The notes beneath the pieces are model-generated. The model made no database searches and was not told the origin of the DNA. It saw only the letters and a list, made by a program, of their open reading frames with translations. Below, one piece after another: positions 1 to 4,887 of a stretch of DNA of 5,041 bases; the first letter of the stretch is position 1, and the number at the start of each line of letters is the position of its first letter. The translations under genes and the position numbers were made by a program. The stretch comes from Pirellulales bacterium (lineage in GTDB: Bacteria > Planctomycetota > Planctomycetia > Pirellulales > Thermoguttaceae): positions 1 through 5,041 of the forward strand of contig JAUWWA010000185.1 of assembly GCA_030617125.1 (NCBI GenBank). The letters are read 5' to 3'.

Positions 1-1037
1 AGGCTGGCGGCAAGCAGCAATCGGTGACGGCGCCGCGGCTGCGACGTTGCCGCGGTTTTCATCAGGTCGTCCAGCCGCTGCGTCAGCGCGCTGCGGGGAT
101 CGGCCGGAAGTACCATCGACGTTGATTCCCAGCCGGGCAGGTCATCCGGCCAATCGTCGATGGACTCCTCGCGGTAGACGCGACGCAGCTCGCGGAGCAA
201 ATCCCGGGCCGACGGGTACCGGCGGTCGGGGTCCTTGGCCAGCAGCCTGTGGACGATCCGGCACAACGCGGCCGGCAAGTCCGGACGTACGGTCTCCAAC
301 GGTGCGGGCTGCTTCTTCAGGTGTTGCACCGCCACGCCCAACGCCGTATCGCCGGAAAACGGCGGCGCACCGGACAGCATATGGTAGCAGGTCACGCCGA
401 ACGAGTAGAGATCGCTACGCGGGTCAAGCGGTCTGCCTTCGACCTGTTCCGGGCTCATGTACAGCGGCGTGCCCATGGTGATGCCGACCTGCGTCAGATC
501 GGTCTTCTCGCCTTCGCGAGTCACCCGGGCGAGGCCGAAGTCGGCGACCTTCACTTCGCCGCTTCGCGTGAGCATGATGTTTTCCGGCTTGATATCGCGA
601 TGGACGACACCCTGCTCGGCTGCTTTGGCCAGCGCGGCGGCCACTTGGCGGATGATCGACAGCGCACGGGGAAGATCAGGCGGACCGTGACGGCCGATCC
701 ACTGGCGGAGGTTCTCGCCCTCGATGTACTCTTGGGCGATGTAGTGCAAGTCGCCGACATGGCCCACCTCGTAGATTTGGACGATGTTGGCGTGCGCCAG
801 GGCCGCCGCGGCCTGGGCTTCTCGCTCGAACCGCTTCAGGTAGGTGTGGTCGTCGGCCAACTCGGGCTTGAGAATCTTGACGGCTACGTGGCGTCGCAGT
901 AGATACTGCTCGGCCAGATAGACTTCAGCCATGGCCCCGCGTCCCAGCCGCCGAAGGAGGCGAAAATCGCCCAGTTGCCGACCGGAGAGGTCGGCCGCGA
1001 CAGACGTTTTGTTAGGCTGGTCGCTAGAGTTGCTCAT
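1..1037 (-). CDS. Hanks-type serine/threonine protein kinase, N-terminal part (3' end cut by window edge)
   Basis: Transfers phosphate from ATP to Ser/Thr of protein substrates; probably a membrane-anchored signalling kinase. 345 residues are visible, starting at ATG 1037 (MSNSSDQ). A tail of about 24 residues precedes the kinase domain. The glycine loop is GRGAMAEVYLA (32-42), with Ala where the usual third Gly sits. The ATP lysine is in VAVK (K54) and the helix C Glu is likely E73. The catalytic loop is HRDIKPEN (146-153, D148 and N153), the metal motif DFG is 166-168, and the P+1 end is MSPEQ (194-198). DPRSDLYSFG follows as subdomain IX. All catalytic residues are present, so it should be active. 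After about residue 290 comes an acidic linker, then RRRHRLLLAAS at the edge, which may open a transmembrane helix, as is usual in PknB-like kinases. No good ribosome site precedes the ATG, and the frame stays open upstream without another ATG. Substrate unknown. Confidence 0.96.
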   Translation of the reverse strand, partial: MSNSSDQPNKTSVAADLSGRQLGDFRLLRRLGRGAMAEVYLAEQYLLRRHVAVKILKPELADDHTYLKRFEREAQAAAALAHANIVQIYEVGHVGDLHYIAQEYIEGENLRQWIGRHGPPDLPRALSIIRQVAAALAKAAEQGVVHRDIKPENIMLTRSGEVKVADFGLARVTREGEKTDLTQVGITMGTPLYMSPEQVEGRPLDPRSDLYSFGVTCYHMLSGAPPFSGDTALGVAVQHLKKQPAPLETVRPDLPAALCRIVHRLLAKDPDRRYPSARDLLRELRRVYREESIDDWPDDLPGWESTSMVLPADPRSALTQRLDDLMKTAATSQPRRRHRLLLAAS

Positions 1038-1235
1038 GGGCGCAAGAATGTGGTTAGTCGTCAGGGGGCAGAAGTCAGGGGTGGGAGAAAACTCACGACG
1101 GGCGTCTAACAACGGACGACTGATAAGCGGGTTGTGGTAAAAAACTTCGAGGTCAACATGGCCAAGGCGGTGCAGTAAAGGTGTCCGCAATATTTGTCGC
1201 CCCTGTCTTAGTGGTGGAGCATCCTGTTTCCGGAT
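1038..1235. other. Intergenic stretch without a recognisable gene
   Basis: This is the part of the 1038-1490 gap between the protein kinase start and the FDPY remnant. I see no intact gene, tRNA or CRISPR repeat. Short minus-strand frames are open here, but none has a start with a ribosome site or a recognisable motif. Two copies of GTCAGGGG lie 14 bases apart at 1060-1067 and 1074-1081. The other end of the gap, 1386-1490, also shows nothing I can assign beyond lying between the epimerase stop and the remnant's ATG. Confidence 0.6.
1060..1081. repeat. Short imperfect tandem repeat (GTCAGGGG twice)
   Basis: GTCAGGGG occurs at 1060-1067 and again at 1074-1081, a 14-base period, just upstream of the protein kinase start. 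Two copies are few, and the role, if any, is unknown. It may be a minimal version of the short tandem intergenic repeats seen in GC-rich environmental bacteria. Confidence 0.35.
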
Positions 1236-1490: not shown

Positions 1491-2510
1491 TCATCGGTCG
1501 CCGAGTTCCAGCGGCAAGACGGTCTTGTGGTTCTCACGATACCAAACCACCGTTCGGCGTAGCCCCTCCTCCAACGAGATTTGGGGCGACCAGTTCAGCA
1601 GCCGGGCGGCCTTGTCGACGTTGGCCCAGGTGGCCAGAACGTCGGCGGGATGGGCCGGGTGATGCTCGATCCTAGGCTTCTTGCCCAGTAGCGCAGCGAT
1701 TTGCTCAACGACAGCCATGAGTTCCACGGGCCGATCGCCCCCGAGGTTGATCACCTCGTAGCCGAGCGGTTCGAGCGCGGCGAGCGTTCCCCGCGCGATG
1801 TCGTCGACGTAGGTAAAATCGCGGTTTTGCGTGCCGTCGCCAAAAACGATGATCGGTTCGTTCTCGGCGATGCGGCGTACGAAGCGAAAGATGCTCATGT
1901 CGGGCCGGCCCGCCGGTCCGTACACGGTGAAGTATCGCAGGATCGAAACGTCAAGCCCGTAGAGATAGTGATACGTATAGGCCAACGTTTCGGCCGCCTT
2001 CTTCGACGCCGCATAGGGCGACAACGGCCGATTCGTGTCGGTGTCTTCGCGGTACGGCACGGGGTTGTGCGAACCATACAAGCTGGAGGTCGAGGCCAAA
2101 AGAAACATGCCGACACCGAAGTCGCGGCACAATTCCAGCAGGTTCAGTGTTCCGTCGCAGTTGACCTGGTAGTAGACTTGTGGGTTTTCGACCGAGGGGC
2201 GCACTCCGGCCCGGGCCGCCAGGTTGATCACTGCCGAGTAGGGTTGCGCTTCGAGCTTGCCGAGACCCGGTGTATCGGCGTCGGCCTGAAAGAGTCGTTC
2301 CAGCGCCGCCCGGTCGGTGATGTCGATGCGGTGGAAGCGGAAGTCTTCACGAGCGAGCAACCGCTCAAGCCGCCACTGCTTCAATCGCGGATCGTAGGCG
2401 TCATTGAGGTTGTCCACGCCGGTGACCAAGTGGCCGGCGTCCAGTAGCAGTTCTGCGACTTTCGAGGCGATGAACCCCGCACAGCCGGTTACCAGGTAAC
2501 GCTTCGTCAT
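1491..2510 (-). CDS. NAD-dependent epimerase of the UDP-glucuronate 4-epimerase type (extended SDR family)
   Basis: Likely interconverts UDP-glucuronate and UDP-galacturonate by NAD-mediated oxidation and reduction at C4, in the cytoplasm. The protein has 339 residues, normal for the family. The Rossmann start is TGCAGFIAS (8-16); the third Gly of GxxGxxG is Ala15. The acidic residue after beta-2 is in VDNLND (D33). AARAGVRPSVENP (98-110) and FTVYGPAGRPDM are signatures that separate UDP-glucuronate epimerases (plant GAE, CapI/LpsL) from ordinary GalE. The active site has SSLYG after strand 5 and YAASK (Y166, K170); RDFTYVDDIARG follows. I chose ATG 2510 because it starts directly at the Rossmann strand and has GAAGGAA about 10 bases upstream; the longer open frame to 2786 overlaps the kinase gene and adds unrelated sequence. 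It is last in the operon, 52 bases after the GHMP kinase. Related sugar nucleotides as substrates cannot be excluded. Confidence 0.9.
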   Translation of the reverse strand: MTKRYLVTGCAGFIASKVAELLLDAGHLVTGVDNLNDAYDPRLKQWRLERLLAREDFRFHRIDITDRAALERLFQADADTPGLGKLEAQPYSAVINLAARAGVRPSVENPQVYYQVNCDGTLNLLELCRDFGVGMFLLASTSSLYGSHNPVPYREDTDTNRPLSPYAASKKAAETLAYTYHYLYGLDVSILRYFTVYGPAGRPDMSIFRFVRRIAENEPIIVFGDGTQNRDFTYVDDIARGTLAALEPLGYEVINLGGDRPVELMAVVEQIAALLGKKPRIEHHPAHPADVLATWANVDKAARLLNWSPQISLEEGLRRTVVWYRENHKTVLPLELGDR

Positions 2511-2518
2511 GACGGTGG

Positions 2519-2526
2519 TTTCCTTC
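2519..2526 (-). promoter_or_regulatory. Ribosome binding site of the epimerase gene
   Basis: The minus strand reads GAAGGAAA, with the AAGGA core at 2521-2525, ten bases before ATG 2510. It decides the start in favour of MTKRYLVTG rather than the upstream in-frame ATG at 2786. It is the only purine-rich block in the 52-base gap after the GHMP kinase stop. Confidence 0.6.
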
Positions 2527-2562
2527 AACCATGCAAACAGTAGCAAATCCCACTTGGGGTGT

Positions 2563-3570
2563 CTAGAGCGTGTTCGGTCGAATGACGCGGCAGCCGATAG
2601 ATGACAACTCGGCCTGAAGACGCCGAAATGTGGCATCGTTGCCGTACGTGCCGATGATCGCGCCGCCGGAGCCGGCAAACTTGGCCGTGGCGCCGGCAGC
2701 CCGGGCGCGTTCGACCATCTCGACGTGGGCGGCTGGAATGCGGCAGATGGACCGGCGCAGATCAAAGTTCGCGTCGATGAGTTCATCCAAACGCGCCGCG
2801 TCGCCCGCCAGAATCGCTTCGCGCGCGTCGATCGTCAGGTCGGCCAGTCGCACCATCGTGTCGAGCACGGGCGGCTCGCCTTGCTCGAACCGCGCGCGGA
2901 GGTTGTTGTGGACCACTTCGGTCGGTTCGCTCACTTTGGTGCTGTAGGCAATGTACAACGGCGGCAGCAATAGGGCGTCGAGTGGTTCATACTCGCCGCA
3001 AGAAAAACCATGATACTCTCGCATCCGCGCCCAATCGAAATCCATATAGACCAGCCCCTCGTAGACCTGGACGACGCGGTCCTGCAGCCCGGCGGCGATG
3101 CCCAATTCCTCGGTCTCCACGCTCAGCACCAGCGACGGTTGGACTTCGCGGGGAATCTCGATCTCGTAGAACTCCATCAGGCATCGCAGCATGGCGACGA
3201 TGATCGCGCTGGAGCCGGCCAGCCCGACCTGCCGCGGAATGTTGCTCTGGTAGCGGACTGAAAAGTTCTTCGCATGCAGCGTAAGTCCCTGGCGGCGACA
3301 GTACTCGACGAGCTTCTTGATCGTGGCCTTCACCAACCGGATCCCACCATAGTAACCGTGCAAACGGACGTCGCGGACCAGTTCGTCGACCGACTCAAAT
3401 CGGGTTTGATCGTTCTGGCTGAAAACGACCTCGATACGGTCCCATTCGTAAAGGGTTACCTCGGCGTGGAAATTGCGCACTACCAGGGCCAGGGTCTTGC
3501 CGAAGTAGCCGTCCGAGGGATTGCCGATCAACCCCGCACGCGCATAAGCTCTTTTTCGGATCAGTTGCAT
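2563..3570 (-). CDS. GHMP-family sugar kinase, glucuronokinase-like
   Basis: Predicted to phosphorylate D-glucuronate at C1 with ATP, giving glucuronate-1-phosphate (cytoplasmic). The 335 residues match plant glucuronokinase closely in my memory of that family. The opening is YARAGLIGNPSDGYFGKT (9-26; plant: YARIGLLGNPSDVYFGRT). HGYYGGIRL (71-79) and NIPRQVGLAGSSA (110-122), the GHMP phosphate loop, come next, then ELGIAAGLQDRVVQVYEG (155-172) carrying the likely catalytic D164. LLPPLYIAY follows, and the C-terminal GHMP motif is KFAGSGGAIIG (297-307). No motif is missing. ATG 3570 lies 12 bases after the stop of the upstream galU-like gene; the gap holds no clear ribosome site, so translation is probably coupled. 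The neighbours would use its product and the product's product, which supports the substrate. Alternatives are a kinase for galacturonate or for a heptose phosphate or fucose, as in other GHMP branches, but the motifs fit these less well. Confidence 0.85.
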   Translation of the reverse strand: MQLIRKRAYARAGLIGNPSDGYFGKTLALVVRNFHAEVTLYEWDRIEVVFSQNDQTRFESVDELVRDVRLHGYYGGIRLVKATIKKLVEYCRRQGLTLHAKNFSVRYQSNIPRQVGLAGSSAIIVAMLRCLMEFYEIEIPREVQPSLVLSVETEELGIAAGLQDRVVQVYEGLVYMDFDWARMREYHGFSCGEYEPLDALLLPPLYIAYSTKVSEPTEVVHNNLRARFEQGEPPVLDTMVRLADLTIDAREAILAGDAARLDELIDANFDLRRSICRIPAAHVEMVERARAAGATAKFAGSGGAIIGTYGNDATFRRLQAELSSIGCRVIRPNTL

Positions 3571-3582
3571 GGGTGCAGACCA

Positions 3583-4467
3583 CTATGGCGCGAGCAGTTC
3601 TTTCATGTGTTTTCGCAGTGCTGGTCCGTACTGCGGATCCGCCAAGGCGAACTCCGTAAAAGCGAGAAAATAGCTCTCGAAGTTGCCGATGTCGAACCGC
3701 CGTTCGTCGGCCCTCAGACGGATGCCCAGCACATTGCGTCCGTCGCGGATCAACATGCTGACGGCGTCGGTCAACTGGATTTCGTCCCCTTTGCCGGGCG
3801 GGGTTCTCTCGAGGCAGTCAAAGATGGCCGGGCTGAAGACATAGCGGGAAGCAACGGCCAGGTTGCTGGGAGCTTCGTTGGCATCGGGCTTCTCAATCAG
3901 GTCGGCCAACTCGAACACCTCGTCCGCACCGTCACGCGGCTGCGCAATGCCGTAATGGACGACTTCCCTCGGCGGGACCTCCTCGAATGCGATCACCGCC
4001 GCCGCCCGAGATGCCTCGAACTTCTCGATCATCGTTCTGACCACCTTCGACTCGGCGTGCATGCCGATGATCGAATCGCCCAACGCCACCACGAACGGCT
4101 GGTCGCCCACCACCGCCCTGGCGCAAAGCACGGCGTGGCCCAGGCCGAGTTGGCGTCGTTGCCGGGTGTAGAAGTACTCGAGGTCCTCGCGTTCGAAGGC
4201 CAGCTCGCGCAGGAGTTCTTCCTTGCCCGTCTCGCGCAAGTAGTCGATCAGCTCGACATCGATGTCGAAATGGTTTTCGATGGCCGCTTTGCCGGGCCCG
4301 GTGACGAACAGCACCCGGCCGATGCCGCATCGAGCGAGCTCCTCGACGACGTACTGGACCACCGGCTTTCGGCCCATCGGCAGCATTTCCTTGGGCTGGC
4401 TCTTGGCCAACGGCAGCAGCCGGGTCCCCCGGCCGGCCACCGGGACGACAGCGAGATCAACAGACAT
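3583..4467 (-). CDS. galU: GalU-type UTP:sugar-1-phosphate uridylyltransferase
   Basis: Joins UTP and a sugar-1-phosphate to give a UDP-sugar and pyrophosphate, in the cytoplasm. Family UTP-glucose-1-phosphate uridylyltransferase; 294 residues, normal length. The nucleotide loop is VAGRGTRLLPLAKSQPKEML (10-29). GLGHAVLCA (108-116) and the metal aspartate in LGDS (D131) follow. YG is 172-173 and the sugar-phosphate lysine is in EKP (K193), followed by APSNLA and GDEIQLTDA (227-235). The C-terminal motif is FDIGNFESY (258-266), where typical GalU has D-x-G-x-K-x-G-Y; the Lys and Gly are absent. ATG 4467 is preceded by AAGAAGGG. It is the first gene of the operon and is followed after 12 bases by the glucuronokinase-like gene. 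The family is certain. Its substrate could be glucose-1-phosphate as in standard GalU, or glucuronate-1-phosphate as the context suggests. Confidence 0.9.
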   Translation of the reverse strand: MSVDLAVVPVAGRGTRLLPLAKSQPKEMLPMGRKPVVQYVVEELARCGIGRVLFVTGPGKAAIENHFDIDVELIDYLRETGKEELLRELAFEREDLEYFYTRQRRQLGLGHAVLCARAVVGDQPFVVALGDSIIGMHAESKVVRTMIEKFEASRAAAVIAFEEVPPREVVHYGIAQPRDGADEVFELADLIEKPDANEAPSNLAVASRYVFSPAIFDCLERTPPGKGDEIQLTDAVSMLIRDGRNVLGIRLRADERRFDIGNFESYFLAFTEFALADPQYGPALRKHMKELLAP

Positions 4468-4658: not shown

Positions 4659-4887
4659 CTATTCGCGGCTCCGCCGCCAAGCGTACGCCAGCAGGCCGAC
4701 CAGGCCAATGACGGCCAGCGCGAACGTCCCGGGCTCGGGCGTGATCACAAACGCCAGATTGATCGACTGCCCGGCGTACGGATGCACAGAAGGATCGTGC
4801 ATGTCGACCCAACCGGGGATCGATCACTAGCCCTCCAAAGCTTGTGTTGTCGCCATAGACCGCATCGTCCCGGAAGTGCTTTGTGAA
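4659..4887 (-). pseudogene. Frameshifted C-terminal remnant of a PEP-CTERM exosortase-sorted protein
   Basis: The minus-strand frame ending at TAG 4659 encodes GWVDMHD, then PYAGQSINLAFVITPEPGTF, a hydrophobic helix (ALAVIGLVGLLAYAW) and the basic end RRRSRE. This is a complete PEP-CTERM sorting tail; such proteins are exported, cut and anchored by exosortase-type enzymes in exopolysaccharide-producing bacteria. Going upstream this frame meets TGA at 4824-4826. The neighbouring frame carries a plausible continuation, FTKHFRDDAVYGDNTSFGG (about 4829-4887) and LVIDP. The two join by a one-base shift between about 4812 and 4824. Nothing further upstream looks like the body of such a protein, and no signal peptide is present, so even with the shift repaired it is only a 3' stub. 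The longest ATG frame at 4802 gives 47 residues. The tail is certain; the upstream join is probable. Confidence 0.8.

Follow-up and report, generated by a model that had tools for sequence, protein, structure and literature searches.

The window analyzed here, a stretch of 5041 bases on contig C134 of a Pirellulales bacterium whose genome is 68% complete, contains two adjacent genes, one for a GalU-like nucleotidyltransferase and one for a GHMP sugar kinase, and this pair probably converts free glucuronic acid to UDP-glucuronic acid; the activities, the substrates and the role in vivo are read from sequence and gene context. Capsule, lipopolysaccharide, pentose and galacturonate sugars all draw on UDP-glucuronate, whose source in bacteria is usually taken to be UDP-glucose dehydrogenase (UGD). 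According to the proposed mechanism the kinase would put a phosphate from ATP on C1 of glucuronate, after which the GalU-like enzyme would couple glucuronate-1-phosphate with UTP to give UDP-glucuronate. In the window only, a third gene, for a putative epimerase, would convert part of the product to UDP-galacturonate. Breakdown of polysaccharides or glucuronides would supply the glucuronate, with myo-inositol, via inositol oxygenase, as a possible further source in a minority of genomes. The conserved unit is the GalU-like and kinase pair, and genomes with the pair tend to lack UGD; this is a strong tendency, not a rule. The features concerned are the following.

3583..4467, minus strand: GalU-type nucleotidyltransferase, predicted glucuronate-1-phosphate uridylyltransferase (294 amino acids; TIGR01099, 287.4 bits)

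2563..3570, minus strand: GHMP sugar-1-kinase of the plant glucuronokinase type (335 amino acids)

3337..3357, minus strand: codons of the kinase loop G72-Y-Y-G-G-I-R78, which is common to plant glucuronokinases and is not present in the distant planctomycete kinases

1491..2510, minus strand: short-chain dehydrogenase/reductase (SDR), predicted UDP-glucuronate 4-epimerase (339 amino acids; aligned residues, MoeE5 match)

The three genes follow each other on the minus strand in the order GalU-like, kinase, SDR. An initial annotation of this DNA had described them as co-oriented and separated by 12 and 52 bases, and this layout was recovered: the gaps are 3571-3582 between the GalU-like and kinase genes and 2511-2562 between the kinase and SDR genes. 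The SDR start was placed at the ATG at 2510, which is also the start of the aligned homologues; the longest frame extends to 2786. The proteins match the expected domains, the kinase PF00288 (E 1.4e-12), the GalU-like protein PF00483 (E 2.1e-27) and the SDR PF01370 (E 5.3e-59).

The motifs of plant glucuronokinase that had been noticed in the kinase reflect a close relationship. It is 44% identical over 311 amino acids (E 7e-85) to the Arabidopsis record P0122, named putative glucuronokinase, and it has both the GHMP fold and the close relation to the plant enzyme that would be expected of a glucuronokinase (EC 2.7.1.43). In a phylogenetic tree one branch separates eight more distant planctomycete kinases from a group made up of every window-type bacterial kinase and the plant glucuronokinases; the support for this branch (86/97) is below the threshold of the tree tool for firm support. 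The loop GYYGGxR is found in all 31 rows of window-type and plant kinases and in none of the 8 distant rows, and the pattern GYxGxxR is present in 53/53 carrier loci. Named relatives at 76-78% identity are labelled Planctomycetota, Pirellulales and Thermoguttaceae. A glucuronokinase structure was found neither among the 50 rows listed by VIA-align nor by a PDB sequence search with the kinase. The window kinase is of the plant glucuronokinase type, with phosphorylation of D-glucuronate at C1 by ATP as its predicted reaction. A side observation concerns G371, a genome that is 99% complete and has kept UGD: its kinase match is in two pieces (G371:C158:7204-8530), which may be a broken gene, an insertion or a sequencing error.

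The kinase could instead act on another sugar (heptose, galactose or galacturonate), so that the pair would yield another UDP-sugar. The nearest solved sequence is a heptose kinase (E 6e-12, against E 7e-85 to the Arabidopsis record), and the identity to heptose kinases is about 20%, to be compared with 44% to plant glucuronokinase. The score with NF049969, the model for D-glycero-D-manno-heptose kinase, is 53.4 bits, so far below the cut-off of 600 that identity as a heptose kinase was rejected. The initial annotation had also considered that galacturonate might be phosphorylated first and the pathway run backwards through the epimerase. This direction was rejected as lacking sequence support, since similarity to plant galacturonokinase is not significant (no alignment of P0242 with the kinase better than E 1.7). 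Another sugar would hardly account for the tie to missing UGD described below, though galacturonate together with the epimerase could. We consider a different kinase substrate unlikely, and glucuronate remains the preferred one.

The best NCBIfam family for the GalU-like protein is TIGR01099 (GalU; E 1.1e-85), with a score below the cut-off of 326.8 bits, and all of the pair members tested, that is the window and 7 more, are 31-48 bits below this cut-off. A scan of genome contigs with a single query sequence gave 5 loci. Among the loci of the kinase's own subclade that were first obtained, the GalU-like gene is directly upstream of the kinase gene and on the same strand in 11/11, its end lying anywhere from 1 base inside the kinase gene to 180 bases before it. 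In a class sample of 397 genomes (52 kinase carriers and 345 non-carriers) 40 of the 52 carriers (34/46 plus 6/6) have it directly ahead of the kinase gene in the same orientation, with gaps of up to 546 bases. Ten window-type carriers outside the subclade are more varied: three have a GalU-like gene (41-43% identity) just behind the kinase gene, and seven have none, some of the stretches being short. The 11 loci of the subclade include records that bear the labels Balneolaceae (L003) and Olavius-associated proteobacterium (L005), labels of two other phyla. A further record, L002, is labelled Nealsonbacteria and contains both genes, 84 and 71% identical to their counterparts in the window; it is likely a mis-binned planctomycete contig.

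The two genes also occur together at the level of genomes. In a phylum sample of 294 planctomycete genomes, with thresholds of E ≤ 1e-30 for the kinase and E ≤ 1e-20 for the GalU-like protein, each was found in 25 genomes and both in 14, where 2.1 would be expected (Fisher p 4e-11). From this linkage to the kinase the GalU-like protein is predicted to be a glucuronate-1-phosphate uridylyltransferase (EC 2.7.7.44). It might be an ordinary UDP-glucose pyrophosphorylase, with the kinase alone carrying out the uronate salvage, as its best family match and the 11 genomes of the phylum sample with a GalU-like gene and no kinase would suggest. The scores below the GalU cut-off speak against this, and in the window's own class a GalU-like gene accompanies the kinase only (6/6 carriers, 0/15 non-carriers). 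Moreover, a PF01704-type pyrophosphorylase, which could supply UDP-glucose, is present in 34/36 genomes (none in G080 and G145; weak in G266 and partial in G000). An ordinary pyrophosphorylase therefore seems to us a rather improbable identity for the GalU-like protein, and a dedicated partner of the kinase the better one.

The association with missing UGD was analyzed in both samples, which overlap in part. TIGR03026 has matches in 35/36 genomes, 32 of them above the cut-off, and its members are of two kinds: the best solved matches of L065 are UDP-glucose dehydrogenases, and L077 matches Cap5O. Some genomes, among them the carriers G024, G137 and G194, contain only the Cap5O-like, L077-type dehydrogenase. 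Because TIGR03026 alone cannot tell UGD from Cap5O-like dehydrogenases, the UGD-specific query L065 (E ≤ 1e-60) was used for the counts. By this measure G114 is scored as UGD-less although it has another dehydrogenase, with 34% identity to the UGD reference, and the carriers G542 and G668, which have weak UGD matches, are scored as UGD-positive. Of the 44 UGD-less class genomes 20 are named; carriers were scored by their absence from the complete list of matches, which gives sums consistent with the tally. Four carriers in the phylum sample were scored in the same way.

UGD was not found in 29 of the 52 class carriers, compared with 15 of the 345 non-carriers (p 3e-19). When the comparison is limited to good genomes (completeness of 90% or more, contamination of 5% or less) the figures are 26/47 and 6/291 (p 1e-20), and genome incompleteness is an unlikely cause of the pattern. 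UGD is otherwise widespread, being present in 252/294 genomes of the phylum sample, where it is absent from 13/17 window-type carriers, 0/8 distant-kinase carriers and 29/269 others; comparing the window-type carriers with the remaining 29/277 gives p 2.7e-9.

This link could be due to shared descent of a few lineages and have nothing to do with function, and the UGD-less carriers do share genera (six are of g339, four of g6). The genus tally makes this explanation an unlikely one: 13 of the 19 UGD-less genera are carrier genera, which make up 33 of the 186 genera (p 2e-7). UGD is absent from every sampled member in 13/33 carrier genera, belonging to four families, as against 6/153 non-carrier genera; one of the 13 is the window's own genus, resting on the 68% complete genome. 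In addition, within genus g332 three of four carriers are without UGD, which is present in the 10 non-carriers listed. We infer that UGD-less carriers, in many planctomycete lineages, would depend entirely on the pair for UDP-glucuronate. A bolder formulation states that many planctomycete lineages dropped UGD and make UDP-glucuronate only via glucuronokinase and their own GalU-derived uridylyltransferase; they would then be the first bacteria with salvage-only UDP-glucuronate, with surface sugars tied to harvested uronic acids. We give this formulation an even chance of being correct.

The third gene has a different standing. In the SDR the residues T141, S142, S143, Y166, K170, T195 and R202 align with those described for the Bacillus cereus UDP-glucuronate 4-epimerase, which we take to be 6zl6. 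A Thr-Ser-Ser motif, Arg carboxylate residues and a YxxxK dyad are described for UDP-glucuronate 4-epimerases in two papers (PMC7984243, PMC12338863), and the SDR carries Thr-Ser-Ser, the arginine R202 and the dyad Y166/K170, in agreement with the epimerase-like character that was first assigned to it. MoeE5 (6kv9) is fourth among its PDB matches, and at the top stands a chain with the name dTDP-glucose 4,6-dehydratase. None of the NCBIfam equivalog cut-offs is reached; the best is galE with 168.8 of 262.3 bits. As a side observation, a 45% relative of the SDR adjoins a Cap5O-like dehydrogenase at G194:C1:1873845-1876381.

A dedicated three-gene operon for UDP-galacturonate would be in keeping with these residues, the common orientation and the short gaps. 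Two genomes of the same family as the window, G500 and G447, also have an SDR gene behind the kinase gene, on the same strand and 96 and 587 bases on (L112:8813-9790 and L143:5786-6787). However, this is a different gene, 26% identical to the window's SDR and above the cut-off for GDP-mannose 4,6-dehydratase; its position behind the kinase is a sugar-nucleotide setting. The window's SDR adjoins the pair in the window only (1/52 class carriers). Of the other class carriers, 48 have 1.1 kb or more of downstream sequence, and none of these has a relative of it beside the pair; 3 more have less than 0.4 kb. The nearest found, in L157, is a 38% relative 2.6 kb from the pair on the opposite strand, and in G167, of the same family, a 68% relative is located about 484 kb from the pair beside other genes. 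The SDR is not beside the pair in any of L002-L005, the downstream stretch in L002 being 1.4 kb. Because the SDR adjoins the pair in the window only, the trio was rejected as a conserved unit. The initial annotation had assigned the whole route to one bacterial operon and expected the trio to be a conserved neighbourhood; the kinase type and the GalU-like gene as conserved neighbour stand, and the SDR drops out. A dedicated three-gene operon is thus very unlikely, and the pair by itself is preferred. The SDR fits the product of the pair but is outside the conserved unit; it and the pair may well share a transcript in the window.

The distant kinases provide a parallel. For four of the eight the neighbourhoods were examined (L023, L024, L025, L028), and three have a nucleotidyltransferase adjoining or fused. 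Two of the distant kinases (34-36% identity, loop GYYGG absent) are each beside an RmlA/AglF-like nucleotidyltransferase of 247-249 amino acids (L048:9295-11063 and L049:2658-4360). In L028 (694-2355, minus strand) a single bacterial protein of about 554 amino acids joins a GHMP kinase domain to a nucleotidyltransferase domain behind it, and the fourth distant kinase (L023, L047) has a sugar-isomerase-like neighbour instead of a nucleotidyltransferase. UGD is kept in all 8 distant-kinase genomes. Kinase and nucleotidyltransferase are also fused in zebrafish (GKUP), as described in PMC3938481, and the domain order of the L028 fusion is the reverse of that in GKUP. Since the two kinds of protein are found together even where the nucleotidyltransferase is not of the GalU type (as neighbours, in L028 and in zebrafish), we read the two enzymes as acting in sequence.

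The neighbourhood in L005 bears on the source of the glucuronate: the pair is beside uxaC, the gene for glucuronate isomerase (634.9 bits, cut-off 387). Other neighbours there are a nickel-pincer isomerase of group 22, above its cut-off, and KDG-kinase-like sugar kinase, nagA-like and nagB-like genes, below theirs; this cluster is a uronate and amino-sugar setting. It extends over L005:10-12994 in a record labelled Olavius symbiont, and a TctABC-like transporter, named from sequence alone, is found there too. UxaC is above the cut-off in 3/21 kinase carriers (G167, G145, G243) and in 0/15 of the non-carriers tested. As all three are kinase carriers, salvage and breakdown can coexist, and the contrast with degradation through UxaC that the initial annotation had drawn was too simple. 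Inositol oxygenase was rejected as a general source of glucuronate, being present in 13/52 carriers and in 4/28 non-carriers hand-picked from 345 (p 0.39), which is not significant. It is found in 5/29 UGD-less carriers, one match being a fragment, and in those 5 the entire plant-like route from inositol would be possible.

Several observations weigh against a pair dedicated to UDP-glucuronate and have to be set beside the evidence above. UGD is kept by 23/52 class carriers, and its replacement is therefore not general; the bypass of UGD in the initial annotation, with ugd absent from the same genomes, holds as a strong tendency but not as a rule. Kinship in the carrier and UGD counts is addressed by the genus tally only, which removes it in part. 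Twelve of the 52 class carriers are without an adjoining GalU-like gene (9 with 2.6 kb or more of sequence ahead of the kinase, 3 with less than 0.65 kb), and a GalU-like gene without the kinase occurs in 11/269 genomes of the phylum sample. No residue marking uronate acceptance was identified in the GalU-like protein. With galacturonokinases as the root, the tree leaves the plant, distant and window-type groups in a three-way split without resolution. For the zebrafish fusion PMC3938481 states that nucleotidyltransferase activity was undetected in standard assays. Finally, because inositol oxygenase is without enrichment in carriers, an internal source of glucuronate is unproven.

The rest of the window contains two further features. 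A serine/threonine protein kinase gene at 3-1190 (minus strand) is truncated by the window end and scores 341 bits with the PknB PASTA model (cut-off 450). At 4659-4823 (minus strand) a stop-to-stop frame of 54 residues ends in an anchor, TPEPGTFALAVIGLVGLLAYAWRRSRE, which we presume to be PEP-CTERM-like; no long gene lies ahead of it, and the frame may represent the end of a secreted-protein gene, upstream of the pair, that has been broken or frameshifted. A search of the window against Rfam gave no match.

If the pair replaces UGD, entire planctomycete lineages are wrongly annotated (the profile libraries used label the pair as a GalU-like protein and an unnamed GHMP kinase) and wrongly represented in metabolic models, and the supply of envelope sugars in these lineages would depend on scavenged or inositol-derived glucuronate. 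The pair would also offer a compact set of two bacterial enzymes with which UDP-glucuronate could be made from a cheap sugar. The glucuronokinase route is known from plants and lower animals, and what is likely new here is a bacterial form often standing in for UGD. In the open-access literature, subscription journals being outside the scope of the search, we found no paper joining glucuronokinase with planctomycetes and none on a bacterial form that replaces UGD.

The closest known system is that of plants, in which glucuronokinase and UDP-sugar pyrophosphorylase (USP) carry out the same two chemical steps as predicted here, with a kinase of the same family (44% identity). The plant kinase has USP as partner, whereas the partner here is a bacterial GalU-type enzyme encoded adjacently. 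In plants UGD is the main route alongside, according to PMC3938481; here it was not found in 29/52 carriers. Plants also have the myo-inositol oxygenation route, and here inositol oxygenase is present in a quarter of the carriers only (13/52). The zebrafish GKUP, as described in the same paper, likewise ties a kinase to a short bacterial-type nucleotidyltransferase, but the bacterial genes are separate and adjacent and the partner is of the GalU type; the comparison is by description. By size and description the GKUP nucleotidyltransferase looks nearer to the RmlA-like neighbours of the distant kinases. With the UDP-glucuronate 4-epimerases (UGAepi of Bacillus cereus, MoeE5 and plant GAE) the SDR shares the TSS, YxxxK, T and R residues; it stands beside a salvage pair in the window and is unlinked to the pair in the other carriers examined. 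The usual route in bacteria, by UGD, arrives at the same product, UDP-glucuronate, by oxidizing UDP-glucose, whereas the pair would activate free glucuronate.

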